The notes under the pieces were generated by a model, which worked only from the letters and a program-made list of their open reading frames with translations, was not told the origin of the DNA and searched no databases. 64,000 bases of DNA, taken from the NCBI GenBank assembly GCA_017303995.1, contig JAFLBE010000012.1:1-64000 (forward strand). The letters run 5' to 3'. The position numbers and the translations under genes are program-made. Positions 1,480 to 37,203 of this stretch are shown one piece after another. Numbering within the stretch: position 1 is the first letter of the stretch; each line of letters begins with the position of its first letter. The stretch comes from Bacteroidota bacterium. Its GTDB lineage: Bacteria; Bacteroidota; JABWAT01.

Positions 1480-3579
1480 TTAGTTTAAGGAATCATGTTG
1501 TGGATGCCATTTACTTAATTCCATAAGTTCTGCCTGATAAGAAAGAACTCTTTTTTTATGAAGAAAAAAGCCCCTTGAATTTAAATGCTGAAAAATATTC
1601 ATGACATAAAATAATAATTCCAGATTAGAATCAATATAAGATTCCTTCATGAAATAATTCAGGTCTTTTTCCAAATAAGTGTTTAGCTTTTGTTTTATTT
1701 CCGGATTGAATTCGACCTGAAATAATTCATCAGCCAGCATATTTTTAATTCTCTCTTTCAAGGTCTTTTCAAGGGGAAGCATATTTTTGAAATTCATTCT
1801 GATTGTTTCAAATGGGGTTGTAATATTTACAAATTGGAGTGACTCATTTAATTGTTTGAATAACTCAAAATTCTGATCATAAAGCTGGTCAAAATTGTAG
1901 AAATCAGAATAAAAATCTTCAATTTTGGATGGAAGGTCTAACCTGCTTTCAATTTGTTTGAAAGTCCAGTAAATAAGGGTATCGTTTTCATGCAACTGCT
2001 GGTTTAGCTCTTTACTCTGCTTTTCTAATTGAGCTAAAAGTTTTTTGCAGTCAGTTATTTTGTATCTGATTCCGTCGTAGTCAAAAGTTTTAATACCCGT
2101 GGTCCCGGTTAATAACTGGTTCATAATTGCTATATCATTTTGCAGTGAAAATACCGAATAGACCAATTCGACCTTCTTTTGTGAGTAAAGTTGTTCAGGG
2201 TCAGAAGTTACTAAATCAGGTGGTATATTTTTAATATCGATATTTAAAGGATTCCAGTTATCGTAATAATCATTGAATACGGGCTCAAATCTATTTTTCT
2301 CAAATTCTTCAATAAAATTGGTTTTAAAAAAATCAGCGCCGGGTAAATTTACTTCTCCATCGAATTTAATTGTTGCGAAAAGTTTTTCTGTTAATTTGGT
2401 TTGTATCTCAATGTGATTTGAAAATAGATTATTTGCACGGATAATTGAACCAGATTCAATTTTAATTCCAAGTCTCTCTAATCTTTGAATTCGTTCTTCC
2501 AGTGTCGGGTGTGAAGACCACTGATCTTTTATGACTAATTTTGATTTATTGTATTTGGTAAAATATTCAGCTGAAACCTGGGGCAAATTATTTATAACCG
2601 GAATTCGGTTTTCGACTGCAATATGTGTTAATACAAACTCCATATCTGAAAAAATGTTTTCAGTCTTTATATTATCCTTTATCCGTGAATCATAAAAGTT
2701 TAAAACCGATTGATAGGCGTGGTCGGACAAATTTAGCCTTAATAGTGAGTTTTTTAAAGGTTCTGAACCTGCAACGTGTGCAGCTATTTCATCAGCATGA
2801 AATTCCATTTCTCTTGAAAGCCCCAGATAGTTCAAATTTACAATTTCATAAAGTTTCCTGCTTAACCATTGAATCCCCACAATAACTTTATTTGCACCTT
2901 GAACAACGATTGAAAAAATCCAACTGAAGTCCGCCCATTCCTGTATTATTTTATCAAATGATTCATTTTCATAAATCATATCAAAAATCATTTTATTGAC
3001 ACCATAAACAAAACTTCCAAGTCTCATGGTACCTTGTGCAAAATGACCGAATTCATGGGAAAGAACAGCCTTTAGTTCCATTTCAGAAACTGAATTAACA
3101 AGCCCCATTCCAATCTGAAGGTTTTTTCCAACGGGATAAAATAAGCTCAATATATTTGAATCATAAAACACTGATGCATTTACGTCTGAGGAAAGATAAA
3201 CCTTTTTTGGAAATTCGGTTCCAACCTGATTAACAATTTCAGAAATTAGTTTAAAAAGGGCCGGTTCGTTCTTTTGTGTTACTTCAACCCAAAGGGATCT
3301 GTCTGATTTGCTGGTTTTAAATAAAAATTTAAAAAGAAATATCAGAATAATGAGGCCAAAACTTGAAATGCCAATTCCAAATACTATGAAAAACAGATTG
3401 TGAATATTGATTATACAATAAACTCCAAGCCAAATGCACAAAATAGTAATCAGACTAGTAACAATTACAATTGCCAGGTAGGCAATGAAAAAAATGAAAA
3501 GTGCAATAATTGCACGGGTTGTCTGGATTTTAAATTCTTTTGAAAGATTGATTTCATTTTTAACCATTTGGAACTTCAC
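1480..3579 (-). CDS. M48-family membrane zinc metallopeptidase
   Basis: 699 residues. Two or three hydrophobic segments (about residues 22-50 and 60-87) anchor the protein. The zinc-binding HEFGH motif lies at residues 175-179, and a downstream REMEFHADEIAAHVAG segment supplies the third-ligand glutamate and the conserved aspartate of the M48 (HtpX/Ste24-like) clan. The C-terminal 350 residues are helical and unrecognised, making the protein much longer than HtpX (about 290). M48 enzymes degrade misfolded membrane or envelope proteins. The second ATG at residue 5 is an alternative start. The peptidase call is sure; its substrate is unknown. Confidence 0.88.
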   Translation of the reverse strand: MKFQMVKNEINLSKEFKIQTTRAIIALFIFFIAYLAIVIVTSLITILCIWLGVYCIINIHNLFFIVFGIGISSFGLIILIFLFKFLFKTSKSDRSLWVEVTQKNEPALFKLISEIVNQVGTEFPKKVYLSSDVNASVFYDSNILSLFYPVGKNLQIGMGLVNSVSEMELKAVLSHEFGHFAQGTMRLGSFVYGVNKMIFDMIYENESFDKIIQEWADFSWIFSIVVQGANKVIVGIQWLSRKLYEIVNLNYLGLSREMEFHADEIAAHVAGSEPLKNSLLRLNLSDHAYQSVLNFYDSRIKDNIKTENIFSDMEFVLTHIAVENRIPVINNLPQVSAEYFTKYNKSKLVIKDQWSSHPTLEERIQRLERLGIKIESGSIIRANNLFSNHIEIQTKLTEKLFATIKFDGEVNLPGADFFKTNFIEEFEKNRFEPVFNDYYDNWNPLNIDIKNIPPDLVTSDPEQLYSQKKVELVYSVFSLQNDIAIMNQLLTGTTGIKTFDYDGIRYKITDCKKLLAQLEKQSKELNQQLHENDTLIYWTFKQIESRLDLPSKIEDFYSDFYNFDQLYDQNFELFKQLNESLQFVNITTPFETIRMNFKNMLPLEKTLKERIKNMLADELFQVEFNPEIKQKLNTYLEKDLNYFMKESYIDSNLELLFYVMNIFQHLNSRGFFLHKKRVLSYQAELMELSKWHPQHDSLN

Positions 3580-3698
3580 GTAATATTTGGTACGAAATAA
3601 AATAATAATAAGAAAATAGTCACTTCACTGCAATAAAATATTAGAAAAAACAAATAATGCTTAATTGAATTGCAACTTTTCTTCTGTTTATTAGATCT

Positions 3699-4304
3699 CT
3701 AAACCCTGTTCCGTTTCCTTAAATAATAATGCCAGAGATAGTAAGTTGCCAGTGAACGTAGTGGTTTCCAGTTTTCTGATAAGGTGAGAATTTCTTCTTT
3801 GGTTTGTGCCGGCGTTAGTGCCCTGATGGTATTGATAACGGCAATATCACCAGCCGGAAATATATCTTTTGCCTGAAGACAAAACAAGAGGTAAATATCA
3901 GTTGTCCAGTCACCGATACCTTTTATTCGGGTAAGTTCTTTTCTGATTTCAGCATCAGCCATATTTCCAAAGGAATCAAAGCTGAGATTTCCATACAAAA
4001 TAGCGTCAGAAAGTTCACGAAGATAGGTTGCCTTCTGTCTGCTGATCTGACAGGTTCGCATTTCTTCATCGGTTAACTTAAGAATTTCTGACGGAGTGAA
4101 TTCCTTCAGGAAGGAATTCAGTTTGAGGAAATGGGCATTGGCAGATGCCAGGCTGACCTGCTGTTCCAGTATGATTTTCGACAGGGAAATAAAACCAGGC
4201 GGTCGTGTCCAGTTTGGGGGTGAACCGTATTGGTCATAAATCCTGGAAAATAGTGGATCAAGTTCAAAAAGCCGGTCTGAATCCGATTGGTTAACAATTG
4301 ACAT
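3699..4304 (-). CDS. DNA-3-methyladenine glycosylase II-like (HhH-GPD)
   Basis: About 201 residues. A helix-hairpin-helix followed by a Gly/Pro-rich loop and catalytic aspartate (TRIKGIGDWTTDIYL then FPAGDIAV) is the HhH-GPD signature of AlkA-type glycosylases, which excise alkylated purines in base-excision repair. The last residues lack the four-cysteine iron-sulfur cluster of endonuclease III, favouring an AlkA-like enzyme. I chose ATG 4304, three bases after the kinase stop. A TTG at 4310 would overlap that stop. The tight spacing suggests co-transcription with the sensor kinase upstream. Confidence 0.85.
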   Translation of the reverse strand: MSIVNQSDSDRLFELDPLFSRIYDQYGSPPNWTRPPGFISLSKIILEQQVSLASANAHFLKLNSFLKEFTPSEILKLTDEEMRTCQISRQKATYLRELSDAILYGNLSFDSFGNMADAEIRKELTRIKGIGDWTTDIYLLFCLQAKDIFPAGDIAVINTIRALTPAQTKEEILTLSENWKPLRSLATYYLWHYYLRKRNRV

Positions 4305-32190: not shown

Positions 32191-32583
32191 CTATTTTTCA
32201 AGAAGCCTGAATTCAATATTCTGTTTCATTAACTGAAAATGAGAATCAAGTGTAAAAAGGGATAATCCGTTTTGAATGACATTTTGCAATATAATCAGGT
32301 CCGGAATGCCGATTTTGTTTATTCCCGATTTCAGATTCATGAACTGAAGGTCAATAATATCCGGCCAAACAATAGTTAATGGAATTACTTTGACAGATTT
32401 CAGTGCCTGAATAACCTCACTTTGACCTTTTTGACTGAGAACCGGAATCAGTTCAGCAAGAATAAGTTCATTGGTACAAATCTGGTTTGTGTCAATCAGC
32501 CCTTCGAAACGATCAGCATCAATCTCTCCGCTTCCACGGAAATAATCGATCCAGACTGATGAATCAACAAGTATCAGACTCAT
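32191..32583 (-). CDS. vapC: PIN-domain ribonuclease toxin VapC
   Basis: 130 residues. PIN-domain acidic residues are present: D7 in LVDSSVWIDYF, E in NELILAEL, D in GIPDLIILQN and D in LFTLDSHF. These coordinate Mg2+ for RNA cleavage. The gene overlaps the antitoxin's stop by four bases (ATGA), the normal VapBC arrangement. Target RNA unknown. Confidence 0.93.
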   Translation of the reverse strand: MSLILVDSSVWIDYFRGSGEIDADRFEGLIDTNQICTNELILAELIPVLSQKGQSEVIQALKSVKVIPLTIVWPDIIDLQFMNLKSGINKIGIPDLIILQNVIQNGLSLFTLDSHFQLMKQNIEFRLLEK

Positions 32584-32771
32584 CGTTTTCTCAGTTGATC
32601 AAGATCGATGCTCAGATCTATTTTTCCCCGGAAATTTTTCAGGGATTTGACTTTTTCTTTCTGGATCAGGTTAATCAGAGCTTCTTTAATCACCTCTGTT
32701 TTGGTTGAAATATGGGTAAGCTCCATGGCTTCCGCCAAAAGGTTTTCCGGAATATCGAGTGTTGTTCTCAT
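32580..32771 (-). CDS. vapB: VapB-type antitoxin
   Basis: 63 residues from ATG 32771 (AAGGAG 8 bases upstream; the frame back to 32849 crosses the presumed operator). It begins MRTTLDIPENLLAEAMELTHISTKTEVIKEALINLI, a ribbon-helix-helix of the VapB (DUF2191) type, with a toxin-binding tail. It overlaps vapC. It probably represses its own operon through the ATGCAT sites just upstream. Confidence 0.92.
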   Translation of the reverse strand: MRTTLDIPENLLAEAMELTHISTKTEVIKEALINLIQKEKVKSLKNFRGKIDLSIDLDQLRKR

Positions 32772-32784
32772 CTTTAACTCCTTA

Positions 32785-32836
32785 ATGCATAAACATGAAA
32801 ATAAAGATATGCATAAAAATATGAAAGTATATGCAT
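32785..32836. promoter_or_regulatory. Putative VapB operator: three ATGCAT sites
   Basis: ATGCAT occurs at 32785, 32809 and 32831, spacings of 24 and 22 bp (about two helical turns), within AT-rich DNA just upstream of the vapB start. Ribbon-helix-helix antitoxins commonly bind repeated short palindromes in this place. Confidence 0.55.
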
Positions 32837-32920
32837 TGAAATTAATCATTTAATAAAATATCTGTCTTCCGATAAGTGATGTAGGTTTCCATTTCGTTCT
32901 AAGAAAACCCGGTGGGATGG

Positions 32921-33044: not shown

Positions 33045-36000
33045 TCATCCGTCCAGAAATTCTACTTTTTCCACCTGAAGCGTGATGGCTGAAAAGTCTT
33101 CCATGATGAGTCCGTAGAGTTTGTACGGTTTAACCGTGCTGAGCATCGTGCAGAATTTCGCATACGCTTCGGGGAAGAAAACCGTTTCGTAAATGGCGGT
33201 CGTATCCTCAAAACTCACAAATTGCATCGGTTCATCATTTTTGGTGTAAACCACTTTTCTCGTAATCATCCAGCCGATGGTTCTGACTCTTTTTCCCACA
33301 AATAAATGGAGTTTGCTGCCCGGAATGTGATTCAGCCGGTCGGTAATTCTCTTAAACAAAAACAGCGGGTGAACCGAAAGCACAAAATCCAGCGTCAGCA
33401 TTTCATCTTCGATCACTTTTTCGTACGGATAGTCAGGAACCGGCGGCGGCGGCAAAGCCGGCGTTTCAAACAGATCAAAACAATCACCCACCTGAACGGA
33501 TGACCGGGAATAGTGAAGTTCGGCCTCCCACATGAGCTCCGGACGGGTTTTGCCCTGATTGATGGAATCGAGAGAGCCCGACTTGATCAGAATCTGAAGG
33601 TCACTGAGTTGCGGACTGGTCCGGTTAATGAGATCGGACATTGACGTGAATTTTCCCCGTTTCTGCCGGTCACCCAGAACCCGAACGATGTAGTCTTTTG
33701 TGAGATTTTTGATCTGCATGAATCCGACCCGCAGATACGGGAAATCCCGGCTGACAAGCTGCGGTGAAGCCTGTTTCGGACGTTCGGGCTTTTTAACTTC
33801 GTAGCTGATCCGGTTTTCGTTCAGCAGGGAATCGAGTCCGGCTGTTTTTCCGTTTTCAGGATGAAAGGTGCCAGGAGAAAAGGTGTAGCCGTTGTATTCG
33901 TACATGCTGTCGTTGATGTCGGGCAGGAGAATGGAAATACCCATCCGCCGGGCTTCTGAAATGTACCCGAACGGCGAGTAAAATCCGCCCTGATTCGAGA
34001 TCACCGCTGCAATAAATTCCGCTGGAAAATGGGCTTTCATGTAGGCCGAATGGAAGGAAACCACCACGTACGATGCGCTGTGCGGTTTATTGAACGAATA
34101 TCCGGCGAAACTGTGAATCATGTCCCAGATTTCATCGGTTTTTGCCTGCGTCAGTCCTTTGCTCCGGCATCCGTCCATGAAAAGCTGTTTGTAGCGGATT
34201 TTCATTTCGTTGTCGTTCTTCCGGCTGAGAGACTTCAGCAGTTTGGTGGCGTCGTACTCATCCATATCCGCCAGCGTCATTCCTGCCTTGATCACATCTT
34301 CCTGATAACACATAATGCCGTAGGTTTCGCTGAGCTGATCGGCCAGAAGCGGATGAATCGGTTCCCAGTCGCCGCCTTTTACCCGGCGCACGTACTCGGT
34401 GATGAACTTGTTGGCCGCCGGCCGGATGATGGAACTGTGGATGGTGAGATGGTCGAAATCGCCCAGCCGTGTCTTTTCCTGAAGCTGGCGCATGGCGGGA
34501 GATTCCACATAAAAAACGCCCATGGATTTCCCGTTTCCGAGCATGTCAAGCGTTTTTTGATCGGTGAACACATCGAACGTTTCGAAATCGACAAGATGTC
34601 CGTAATGCTGGTAAACCGACCGTTTGATGTCACGGATAACGGCCAGTGACCGGTTGCCGAGAATGTCAATTTTGATGAGTCCGGAATCTTCGGTCTGATC
34701 TTTTTCCCACTGAACAACGGGAATGCCCTTCGGTGCCGGTTCGAGCGGAGCATGCGTGCGGATGGGTGCTTCAGTAATGACAAATCCGCCGGCGTGCACC
34801 GAAATGTACCGTGGAAACCCGAGAATATCCGACGAAATCTGCAGGACCGACTTCCACTGGTTCGAAAGTCCTTTTGCCTGGGGTGAGGTCATAAACGTTT
34901 CAACTCCGTGCGAGCCGTAATACTGCGAAAACATGGGGATCCGGTGAAAAAATGCCTGAATTTCCATTTCGGGGATGCCGAAAACCTTTGCCACTTCCCT
35001 GATGGCCATCCGGTCTTTGTAAAGCACGTGATTGCAGACCATGGCACAGTAGTCGGTTCCGTACGTCTGGAACAGCGTGTCGATGATGTCGTCCCGTTCA
35101 TCCCAGCAGAAATCCACGTCAATGTCGGGCGGATCGTCACGGCGCATGTTGAGAAACCGTTCGAAGAAAAGATTATGTCGGATGGGTTCCACATCGGTGA
35201 TGTTTAAACAATAGGCGATGATGCTGGCGGCGGCAGATCCACGGCCGCAGTGCGACGACGATTGCTTCACAATAAAACTGACGGTGAGAAAATATTCCGA
35301 AAAACTTTTGGCTTCGATGATGGTCAGTTCTTTTTCGATCCGGCTGACGATGGCTTCATTAAGCCGGCCGTACCGTTTCACGGCACCTTCATAAGTCAGT
35401 TTTCTGAGATGATCGAAGGGGGAACTGCCGGCAGGTCCGAGATACCTGGGCTTGAACAACTGGTTCGGGGGATACGACCAAGTTAAGTCACGGGCAACTG
35501 CGGTGAGATTTTCAACCGCTTCGGGGAGAATCTCGAACCGCCGGATCAGTTCGTCAGGGGGAAGCAAATACGTTTCTTCGCTGATGAGGTCAGTGGGACT
35601 CAGCTGCGACAGGGTTTTATTATCCCGGATGGCTTTCAGCACCTGATGACGCAGAAAGTTGTCTTTTTTGACCATGTAAACCGGGTGAGCAGCAATGGGG
35701 CGGACTCCGCTCTTTTTCGCACGGCGGAGTTTGATCAGGGGAATGTGGAACGAATCAATCTGCAGGTAGACGTCATGGATTCCGCCTTCCACTTTCAGGA
35801 ATTCTGCCAGTTCTACCGACGGCGTCATGAAAATAAGTCCGCCCGCATGAAGGGGAAGCAGCAGCCTGAGATTGGCTTTTTTATCCTCCTGAAGCCGGGA
35901 AACGAGCTGAGTGAGATTAGCAAATCCCTCGGCATTTTTCACGTAAGCCGAAATTTCCTGAACGGAATCTTTCAGATGGGCGCCGGTGATGGCCCGGAGT

Positions 36001-36170
36001 CCGAACGTTCTGGCCGTCTCGTAATAGAGAAACAGGATATACAAATTATTGATATCCGTGAGGGCAATGGTGTCATAACCCAGATCACGGACCCGGCGGC
36101 AGAGTCCTTCAATATCAGAAGCACCCCATCCGAAAGAAAAATTGGAATGTAAGTTTAATAGTGGAAACAT
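33045..36170 (-). CDS. DNA polymerase III alpha subunit, error-prone DnaE2/ImuC-like
   Basis: 1,041 residues, the length of DnaE2/ImuC rather than replicative DnaE. Domains in order: PHP (residues 1-about 230, degenerate: LHSNFSFGWG), polymerase core with GRGSAAAS (309-316) and the catalytic PDIDVDF (348-354), then palm/fingers (SFNKPHSASYVVVSFHSAY), tandem HhH and a C-terminal OB fold. The loss of PHP metal ligands suggests no proofreading exonuclease. A CTGT-N8-ACAG sequence ends three bases before the start codon, so SOS induction is likely. No imuA/imuB-like gene is adjacent. No Shine-Dalgarno sequence is visible; the message may be leaderless. Confidence 0.88.
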   Translation of the reverse strand: MFPLLNLHSNFSFGWGASDIEGLCRRVRDLGYDTIALTDINNLYILFLYYETARTFGLRAITGAHLKDSVQEISAYVKNAEGFANLTQLVSRLQEDKKANLRLLLPLHAGGLIFMTPSVELAEFLKVEGGIHDVYLQIDSFHIPLIKLRRAKKSGVRPIAAHPVYMVKKDNFLRHQVLKAIRDNKTLSQLSPTDLISEETYLLPPDELIRRFEILPEAVENLTAVARDLTWSYPPNQLFKPRYLGPAGSSPFDHLRKLTYEGAVKRYGRLNEAIVSRIEKELTIIEAKSFSEYFLTVSFIVKQSSSHCGRGSAAASIIAYCLNITDVEPIRHNLFFERFLNMRRDDPPDIDVDFCWDERDDIIDTLFQTYGTDYCAMVCNHVLYKDRMAIREVAKVFGIPEMEIQAFFHRIPMFSQYYGSHGVETFMTSPQAKGLSNQWKSVLQISSDILGFPRYISVHAGGFVITEAPIRTHAPLEPAPKGIPVVQWEKDQTEDSGLIKIDILGNRSLAVIRDIKRSVYQHYGHLVDFETFDVFTDQKTLDMLGNGKSMGVFYVESPAMRQLQEKTRLGDFDHLTIHSSIIRPAANKFITEYVRRVKGGDWEPIHPLLADQLSETYGIMCYQEDVIKAGMTLADMDEYDATKLLKSLSRKNDNEMKIRYKQLFMDGCRSKGLTQAKTDEIWDMIHSFAGYSFNKPHSASYVVVSFHSAYMKAHFPAEFIAAVISNQGGFYSPFGYISEARRMGISILLPDINDSMYEYNGYTFSPGTFHPENGKTAGLDSLLNENRISYEVKKPERPKQASPQLVSRDFPYLRVGFMQIKNLTKDYIVRVLGDRQKRGKFTSMSDLINRTSPQLSDLQILIKSGSLDSINQGKTRPELMWEAELHYSRSSVQVGDCFDLFETPALPPPPVPDYPYEKVIEDEMLTLDFVLSVHPLFLFKRITDRLNHIPGSKLHLFVGKRVRTIGWMITRKVVYTKNDEPMQFVSFEDTTAIYETVFFPEAYAKFCTMLSTVKPYKLYGLIMEDFSAITLQVEKVEFLDG

Positions 36171-36172
36171 AA

Positions 36173-36188
36173 CTGTACAAATATACAG
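36173..36188. promoter_or_regulatory. LexA/SOS box (CTGT-N8-ACAG)
   Basis: CTGTACAAATATACAG matches the classical LexA operator exactly in its outer bases and is a near-perfect inverted repeat (ACTGTA/TACAGT). It lies just upstream of the polymerase start codon, where a repressor would block initiation. Confidence 0.75.
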
Positions 36189-36501
36189 TAATATTTGGAT
36201 AGGAACAAGAGAGAACGGGTGGCGGTTTTACGCTGTACTGCCTGCCCCGAAAGCTTTCGGGGTTTTACGGGGTACGGGGTGAAGCGGGTTTCTCATTTAA
36301 TTTTGATTTAGTTATCTTTAGAAAACCTTCCAAAACTGATTTTCATGCTGTGAACAGGTGGTTGGCGTTATGGTTATTTACACATGGTTAACTTTGTTAA
36401 TCTTTTTGCATCCCATTATTCAATCCAAAACGGTTTAAAATTTTTGAAAATCAAAGCATTTTTGCGGTAAAAAGTGGTATAAAATTGAGAGGAAAAGAAA
36501 A
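36189..36501. other. Divergent intergenic region
   Basis: About 310 bases between the polymerase and the FISUMP gene. It contains an 18-bp palindrome CCCCGAAAGCTTTCGGGG at 36245-36262 and AT-rich sequence towards the FISUMP start. AGAGGAAAAGAAAA precedes that ATG. Confidence 0.6.
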
Positions 36502-37203
36502 ATGTTCAGTTATCTTAAGTTCCCTTTAACAGCTATTTTAATGTTTCAGATGTTTTCCGGTTGTAACGAAGACAGTGTAAACTCAGTAGATAACGACAGT
36601 ACAAAACCAATCGGAAACGGTACCCTGAGTTACAACGGATTCACGTATAAAACGGTCGTTATCGGTACTCAGGAATGGACTGTAGAGAACCTGAGGACTA
36701 AGAAATATAATGATGGAACCGAAATAACCAATATAACCGATAACAATGCCTGGATGACAGCAAACAGTGGTGCCCGTTGTGCTAATGACAATAATGAAGG
36801 TACCGTTGCCACCTATGGCTATTTGTACAACTGGTATGCGGTAAACACCGGAAAACTTGCTCCGGCTGGCTGGCGGGTGGCAACAGATGCTGACTGGACT
36901 AAATTGATCAATTTTGTTGGTGGGGGTTCAACCGCAGGAACCAAACTAAAAGCAAAATCAGGCTGGTTCAATAACAAAAATGGGACAGATGAGTATGGCT
37001 TCAATGCTCTTCCGGGTGGGGGGCGTTCGGGTGACAGTGGTTTATTCAGCAGTCTTGAAAGCTCTGGTGGCTGGTGGAGTTCCTCAAGCTACGGTGCGAC
37101 TCTCGCCTGGAACCGGAACATTTACTATTATGATAACGGCGTGTACCGGAGTAGCTATTATCAAAGAGGTGGTTTTTCAGTTCGTTTAGTTCGGGATAAA
37201 TGA
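36502..37203 (+). CDS. FISUMP-domain lipoprotein
   Basis: 233 residues. The lipobox FSGC follows a hydrophobic signal. Residues about 45-232 form a Fibrobacter succinogenes major paralogous domain: TVVIGTQEWTVENLRT, GYLYNWYAVNTGKLAPAGWRVATDADW, GTKLKAKSGW, GTDEYGFNALPGGGR, GGWWSSSSY and GGFSVRLVRDK. FISUMP is related to a C-type-lectin-like/sulfatase-modifying fold; the function is unknown and probably at the cell surface. The protein at 46199-47179 is a paralogue. A terminator follows. Confidence 0.92.
   Translation: MFSYLKFPLTAILMFQMFSGCNEDSVNSVDNDSTKPIGNGTLSYNGFTYKTVVIGTQEWTVENLRTKKYNDGTEITNITDNNAWMTANSGARCANDNNEGTVATYGYLYNWYAVNTGKLAPAGWRVATDADWTKLINFVGGGSTAGTKLKAKSGWFNNKNGTDEYGFNALPGGGRSGDSGLFSSLESSGGWWSSSSYGATLAWNRNIYYYDNGVYRSSYYQRGGFSVRLVRDK

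Follow-up and report, generated by a model that had tools for sequence, protein, structure and literature searches.

A predicted LexA operator directly before a dnaE2 polymerase gene in an uncultured family of GTDB Bacteroidota

A conserved operator sequence at the start of dnaE2

A CTGT-N8-ACAG palindrome located immediately before a gene for an error-prone-type DNA polymerase III alpha subunit, DnaE2, is very probably a LexA operator that represses this gene until DNA is damaged. Together with an inactive Y-family protein (iPolY) and RecA, the polymerase would then form a translesion complex without ImuA in this uncultured family of GTDB Bacteroidota. Such an E. coli-type damage switch on a probably error-prone polymerase is a fresh, good example of a known arrangement, not a novel one. 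The window, i.e. the whole 64-kb stretch of DNA that was analysed, contains a single perfect copy of the pattern (Table 1). Read along the gene, the sequence is CTGTATATTTGTACAG-TT-ATG, with two bases (36171-36172) between the box and the start codon (36170-36168). The original prediction of a perfect CTGT-N8-ACAG before a DnaE2-like gene was confirmed by the sequence, as was its adjacency to the ATG; the three bases given as their distance are the offset.

Dinucleotide shuffles of the window contained 0.41 perfect boxes on average and at least one in 35 of 100 shuffles. The bare presence of a box in the window is thus not significant, and its weight comes from position, conservation and genome context. 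From the genomic frequency of 35 per 4.31 Mb, the chance of a perfect box in a given 50-bp stretch is ~4 × 10−4. We compared four genomes of the family: the one containing the window (own genome, G000), two congeners (G001 and G002) and a member of another genus (G003). The box and its position before dnaE2 are kept in all four with 0–1 mismatch, the sequence being perfect in G000 and G003 (CTGTAATTTTTTACAG) and having one mismatch in G001 and G002 (CTGTATATTTGTGCAG). G000 and G002 have DnaE2 proteins with 99% identity but different DNA upstream; the box, the start and a few flanking bases are retained.

Table 1. Positions of features in the dnaE2 operator region of the window.
Feature	Position	Strand	Remarks
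LexA operator (SOS box), predicted	36173..36188	.	CTGTACAAATATACAG on the plus strand, CTGTATATTTGTACAG in gene orientation
dnaE2 start codon ATG	36168..36170	-	invariant M1 in 4/4 orthologues; predicted leader of a few bases
dnaE2, error-prone-type DNA polymerase III alpha, 1,041 aa	33045..36170	-	PHP, palm, fingers, HhH, weak OB match
Putative −10 element TATATT	36180..36185	-	inside the operator; TTG-N20-TATATT in G000, G001 and G002
Putative −35 core TTG	36206..36208	-	20 bases before TATATT, as in both congeners

A divergent gene (36502-37203, Fib_succ_major lipoprotein) forms the other side of the dnaE2 intergenic region. By bordering the same region it could be thought to be the regulated gene instead of dnaE2; however, it starts 313 bases from the box, and in all four genomes the box stays at dnaE2 while the sequence before the box changes, which leaves this assignment with a negligible probability. 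Short stretches, e.g. CCCGAAAGCTTTCGGG and runs like gtgacccgtaatttgtgaccc, recur in the intergenic sequence (36240-36290) and in the upstream regions of loci L003, L056, L117 and L138 (before dnaE2, iPolY and recG), and look like dispersed repeats.

LexA and the genes sharing its predicted operator

The genome encodes one LexA of canonical architecture (wHTH PF01726 and S24 peptidase), which scored 216.5 bits against TIGR00498 (cut-off 110.95). lexA, which is directly followed by dinB, has a perfect box 39 bases ahead of it, and recA has one at a distance of ~85 bases upstream. Within the family, the box is perfect before recA in all four genomes, before lexA in three (one mismatch in G003) and directly before the start of iPolY also in three (one mismatch in the own genome). 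The search for lexA with its own operator and for CTGT-N8-ACAG before recA and lexA, both suggested together with the original prediction, was hence positive. That the LexA of this genome recognises a different motif, raised there as a possible objection, is not what the sequence evidence indicates, as the same box precedes lexA-dinB and recA.

Genome-wide, 35 perfect boxes were counted in 4.31 Mb compared with 20 matches of a reversed control pattern; the three congeneric or confamilial genomes contain 42, 45 and 52 boxes compared with 25, 22 and 23. Since boxes exceed the control only about twofold, most of the 35 are due to chance, and as many of them sit inside genes the working regulon seems to be small. 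It seems to comprise lexA-dinB, recA, dnaE2 and iPolY, plus recG in two genomes. As a conserved target recG was rejected: its box is perfect in G000 and G002, but G001 and G003 have no match there even with one mismatch allowed, and we do not count it among the core. In G003, a perfect box (locus L143, 778-793) was also seen one base before the ATG of a gene of 269 aa, labelled a DnaQ-like exonuclease from reading its sequence.

The shuffle counts and the many intragenic boxes would both agree with a palindrome that arose by chance, or that binds another regulator, in front of a constitutively expressed dnaE2. Such a coincidence is highly improbable given that the box keeps its position in four of four genomes and that lexA, recA and iPolY of the family carry the same motif. 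A LexA operator is therefore the preferred reading of the site. It shares with the SOS operator of E. coli, CTGT-N8-ACAG (PMC8565304), identical half-sites and spacing, an A+T-rich spacer and, as a prediction here, the autoregulation of lexA. Unlike E. coli, the host belongs to a different phylum, and its LexA is 41% identical to the E. coli protein, with SLTAVKD instead of SPNAAEE in the region of the recognition helix.

A putative core promoter beneath the operator

The hexamer TATATT lies within the operator and is preceded by TTG in the own genome and both congeners (Table 1). Upstream of genes in the own genome, 20 is the commonest of the TTG-TAnnnT spacings from 10 to 30. TTG-N20-TAnnnT occurred in 11 cases in 81 upstream regions, with a null mean of 3.3 and a maximum of 9 in 300 shuffles; this set, cleared of duplicates and dnaE2, drew 53 regions from the window and 28 from box-centred loci and is not a random sample. 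At iPolY, inspection by eye showed that the gap separating TTGAC or TTGAT from a TA-rich −10 is taken up by the box, with a TTG-to-−10 spacing of N20 in three genomes and N19 in G003. Transcription of both dnaE2 and iPolY is predicted to start within a few bases of the ATG. Because the box overlies the putative −10, bound LexA would be expected to prevent initiation, and a message with almost no leader is predicted. The original prediction had proposed a block of initiation or a leaderless message from the close spacing alone, which fits the position of the −10 of TTG-N20-TATATT in the box; from this arrangement we infer that core-promoter occlusion with a nearly leaderless dnaE2 message is likely.

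The operator might instead be a mere roadblock, or act on translation, with the promoter far upstream. This would account for G003, in which the box is present and a TTG-N20 partner of dnaE2 was not found, and for a stricter scan with the E. coli sigma-70 consensus, which found no promoter before dnaE2. On the other hand, TTG-N20-TATATT sets the −10 in the box in three genomes of the genus, and TTG, box and TA-rich −10 of iPolY show by eye a like geometry. A roadblock or translational effect is therefore rather unlikely, and we favour occlusion of the core promoter. This operator-in-promoter layout predicts a tightly shut polymerase gene.

TAnnTTTG is the −7 element of Bacteroidota. As a general promoter it was found at 3 of 54 window genes (2.3 expected) and in 10 cases (3.4 expected) in a larger collection of 91 upstream regions that includes some duplicates, and it was not relied on.

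DnaE2 is probably an error-prone polymerase

The open reading frame (36170..33045, minus strand) encodes the DNA polymerase III alpha of 1,041 residues that had been predicted. The open frame of 1,060 codons makes a longer start possible; M1 is invariant in the four orthologues, and the protein matches the PHP domain from residue 5 onwards. One of nine PHP metal ligands is kept (NHWIHESPY; N6, H8, W15, I40, H65, E72, S118, P163, Y165), compared with the intact HHDHEHCDH of DnaE1 from G001 and G003 in the same alignment, which bears out the degenerate PHP site noted before. All four polymerase catalytic aspartates are present (D349, D351, D353, D502).

The DnaE tree was calculated from 50 rows by a quick method and is unrooted; it included eight Bacteroidota loci and three others, and one partial row (L048) was dropped. 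In this tree, the four DnaE2 proteins of the family join rows from Acidobacteria and Desulfobacterota (SH-aLRT 100), apart from DnaE1, from ImuA/ImuB-linked rows and from the main Bacteroidota short-DnaE rows. With its degenerate PHP site, intact aspartates and separation from DnaE1, the protein is as expected for the DnaE2-like, error-prone type, and we assign it, from its sequence, as a DnaE2 that is probably error-prone.

If the enzyme were a second replicative or a phage-like polymerase with no role in translesion synthesis, its induction would not be mutagenic. In favour of this, the strongest NCBIfam match is a DnaE1 model, the error-prone model PRK05672 reaches 509.9 bits, below its cut-off of 939, and among 13 models matched the superfamily model alone passes its cut-off. 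The NCBIfam subfamily cut-off, however, is a naming threshold and not a defining trait of DnaE2. A separate DnaE1 with intact PHP is present in G001 and G003, and pieces of DnaE1 were found on contigs C15 and C108 of the own genome. Together with the tree, the destroyed PHP site and the association with a dead Y-family protein, this makes a replicative or phage-like function improbable, and a translesion DnaE2 remains the better interpretation. dnaE2 is immediately followed, on its own strand, by a VapB/VapC-type toxin–antitoxin pair (32191-32849).

An unlinked, inactive Y-family protein as probable partner, and no ImuA

The own genome contains two Y-family genes, on contigs C117 and C64 only. 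One is dinB beside lexA; the other encodes iPolY (385 aa, C64; PF00817, 1.7e-22) and is unlinked to dnaE2. Its catalytic residues are replaced in all four orthologues, in the own protein DLD by KIK and DE by SS. The tail may carry a RecA-NT motif: the register is right and the match is modest (14.55, compared with at most 11.99 for 30 column shuffles; HHalign gave a probability of 6.8%). By length and alignment there is no ImuB-C domain, iPolY ending ~10 residues after the RecA-NT-like motif. The ImuA profile NF033429 matched only RecA, below cut-off, in all four family genomes. Absence of adjacent imuA and imuB genes, as originally stated, thus holds locally, but the polymerase does not stand alone: its probable partner, the inactive Y-family protein, is encoded on another contig behind a box of its own. 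That DnaE2 probably has an unlinked, probably co-regulated inactive partner is the main correction to the earlier reading, which the checks that sequence can answer otherwise supported; induction and mutagenesis are predictions.

The distance between iPolY and dnaE2 is 1.6 kb in G002, 2.4 kb in G003 and ~25 kb in G001. In more distant relatives, an iPolY homologue is found before dnaE, within ~1.3 kb, at 7 of 11 loci from Acidobacteria, Deltaproteobacteria and Fischerbacteria; one further locus has a cut piece, and some of the contigs end there. lexA lies within a few kb at 6 of the same 11 loci (once as a partial frame and once on the other side of dnaE), and the order on a Desulfosarcina plasmid is lexA, a DUF72 gene, the iPolY homologue and dnaE. 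At loci L093, L040, L041, L044-L046, L049 and L051, lexA, an inactive Y-family gene and dnaE2 form a compact cassette, in some cases together with a DUF72 gene. These cassettes occur in Acidobacteria, in deltaproteobacterial MAGs and on the Desulfosarcina plasmid, which is mobilizable and whose Y-family gene is annotated only as hypothetical.

DnaE2B-iPolY-RecA has been proposed as a putative mutasome type (Timinskas et al. 2026, PMC12926913), and its composition was described earlier (PMC6511836). The system studied here resembles it in a DnaE2 with degenerate PHP, an inactive Y-family protein, possibly with a RecA-NT-like tail, and a genome without ImuA; its composition matches, and its tentative placement in the DnaE2B group is based on this resemblance. 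In the own genome, unlike that type, the genes are unlinked, each with its own LexA box; according to the published description, adjacency of the partner and dnaE2 is common and not required (PMC12926913). Operators are not a subject of the available text of that paper, which has no occurrence of the word LexA. The ImuA-ImuB-DnaE2 mutasome of Caulobacter, Pseudomonas and Mycobacterium (PMC6511836) likewise combines a LexA-regulated DnaE2 with a dead Y-family protein, and a split cassette exists in mycobacteria (PMC6511836). The present system differs from it in lacking ImuA and the ImuB C-terminal domain and in belonging to another branch of the tree.

In undamaged cells, the single canonical LexA would occupy CTGT-N8-ACAG over the −10 region of dnaE2 and block its transcription. 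Self-cleavage of LexA upon activation of RecA is established for the LexA family. DNA damage should activate RecA and lead to LexA self-cleavage, which would empty the operator and allow synthesis of the nearly leaderless dnaE2 message. As the switch lies across the predicted start site of dnaE2, the enzyme is probably made only on DNA damage. Induction of dnaE2 should be accompanied by that of recA, lexA-dinB and the unlinked gene of the dead iPolY, all of which have the same operator. The three proteins DnaE2, iPolY and RecA probably make up a translesion complex of the DnaE2B-iPolY-RecA type, which does without ImuA.

LexA motifs in other families of the phylum

Among 26 lexA genes from other families of the phylum, 14 are preceded by AGTG-N10-CACT and one by CTGT-N8-ACAG, which shows that the E. 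coli operator is not generally common to the neighbours. The single case (CTGTATATTATTACAG; locus L083 of genome G092, family f28) is one of two lexA genes read from its family, and the recognition helix of the encoded LexA is a different one. At the loci of families f7 and f32 (L066-L080), AGTG-N10-CACT before lexA is exact at 14 of 15 loci and present in two copies at 10, and we consider it a candidate LexA motif of these families; a search of the open-access literature found no description of it as such. The same literature yielded nothing on the LexA motif of the source lineage.

For Balneolaeota, the LexA motif TTACACATATTTTWTACATA has been described (PMC7739468), and the upstream region of one lexA gene (L085) resembles this repeat. 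Bacteroidetes are reported to lack LexA and to use other repressors and motifs; GGA-N5-TCC and CTAA-N5-TTAG are the sites of S24 repressors without homology to LexA (PMC8565304). These neighbouring lineages, too, possess SOS regulons with translesion polymerases, yet their motifs differ (PMC7739468, PMC8565304). The lineage studied here, which GTDB places in its wider Bacteroidota, has a canonical LexA and, by sequence, an operator of the E. coli type before the genes of a probable ImuA-less mutasome.

The LexA tree (40 rows, long branches) gives this LexA no firm place and shows neither transfer nor convergence. Acquisition of the operator with a transferred cassette was rejected: at the 9 places read in Acidobacteria and Desulfobacterota relatives, neither lexA nor the Y-family gene is preceded by CTGT-N8-ACAG within one mismatch. 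As a tentative proposal, possible though not what we would bet on, LexA of GTDB Bacteroidota may have arrived independently at CTGT-N8-ACAG (in this family and f28, with relatives using AGTG-N10-CACT or the Balneolaeota repeat). It would drive an ImuA-less mutasome with dispersed parts, the operator being fused to each core promoter so that regulation survives rearrangement. The family offers a compact test case for the movement and re-evolution of operators and mutagenesis cassettes.

In families f7 and f32, DnaE2 is split into two open reading frames, an N-half of ~540-580 aa and a C-half of ~560-570 aa, for example at 2214-3923 and 6050-7744 of L153 (G123); further loci are L154, L155 and L156-L165. 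No intein-sized extra stretch was present in the halves read, and no description of a split DnaE2 was found in the open-access literature. In G123 and G030 the two halves share a locus but are encoded on opposite strands; they are in tandem in G069 and elsewhere on different contigs or far apart. A search of 12 genomes found the C-half in 10, G061 having it as two pieces on two contigs. In L153 and L155 the N-half adjoins a Y-family gene. Upstream of the C-half, nine regions were read; AGTG-N10-CACT is perfect in L162 and L163 and has one mismatch in L158 and L161.
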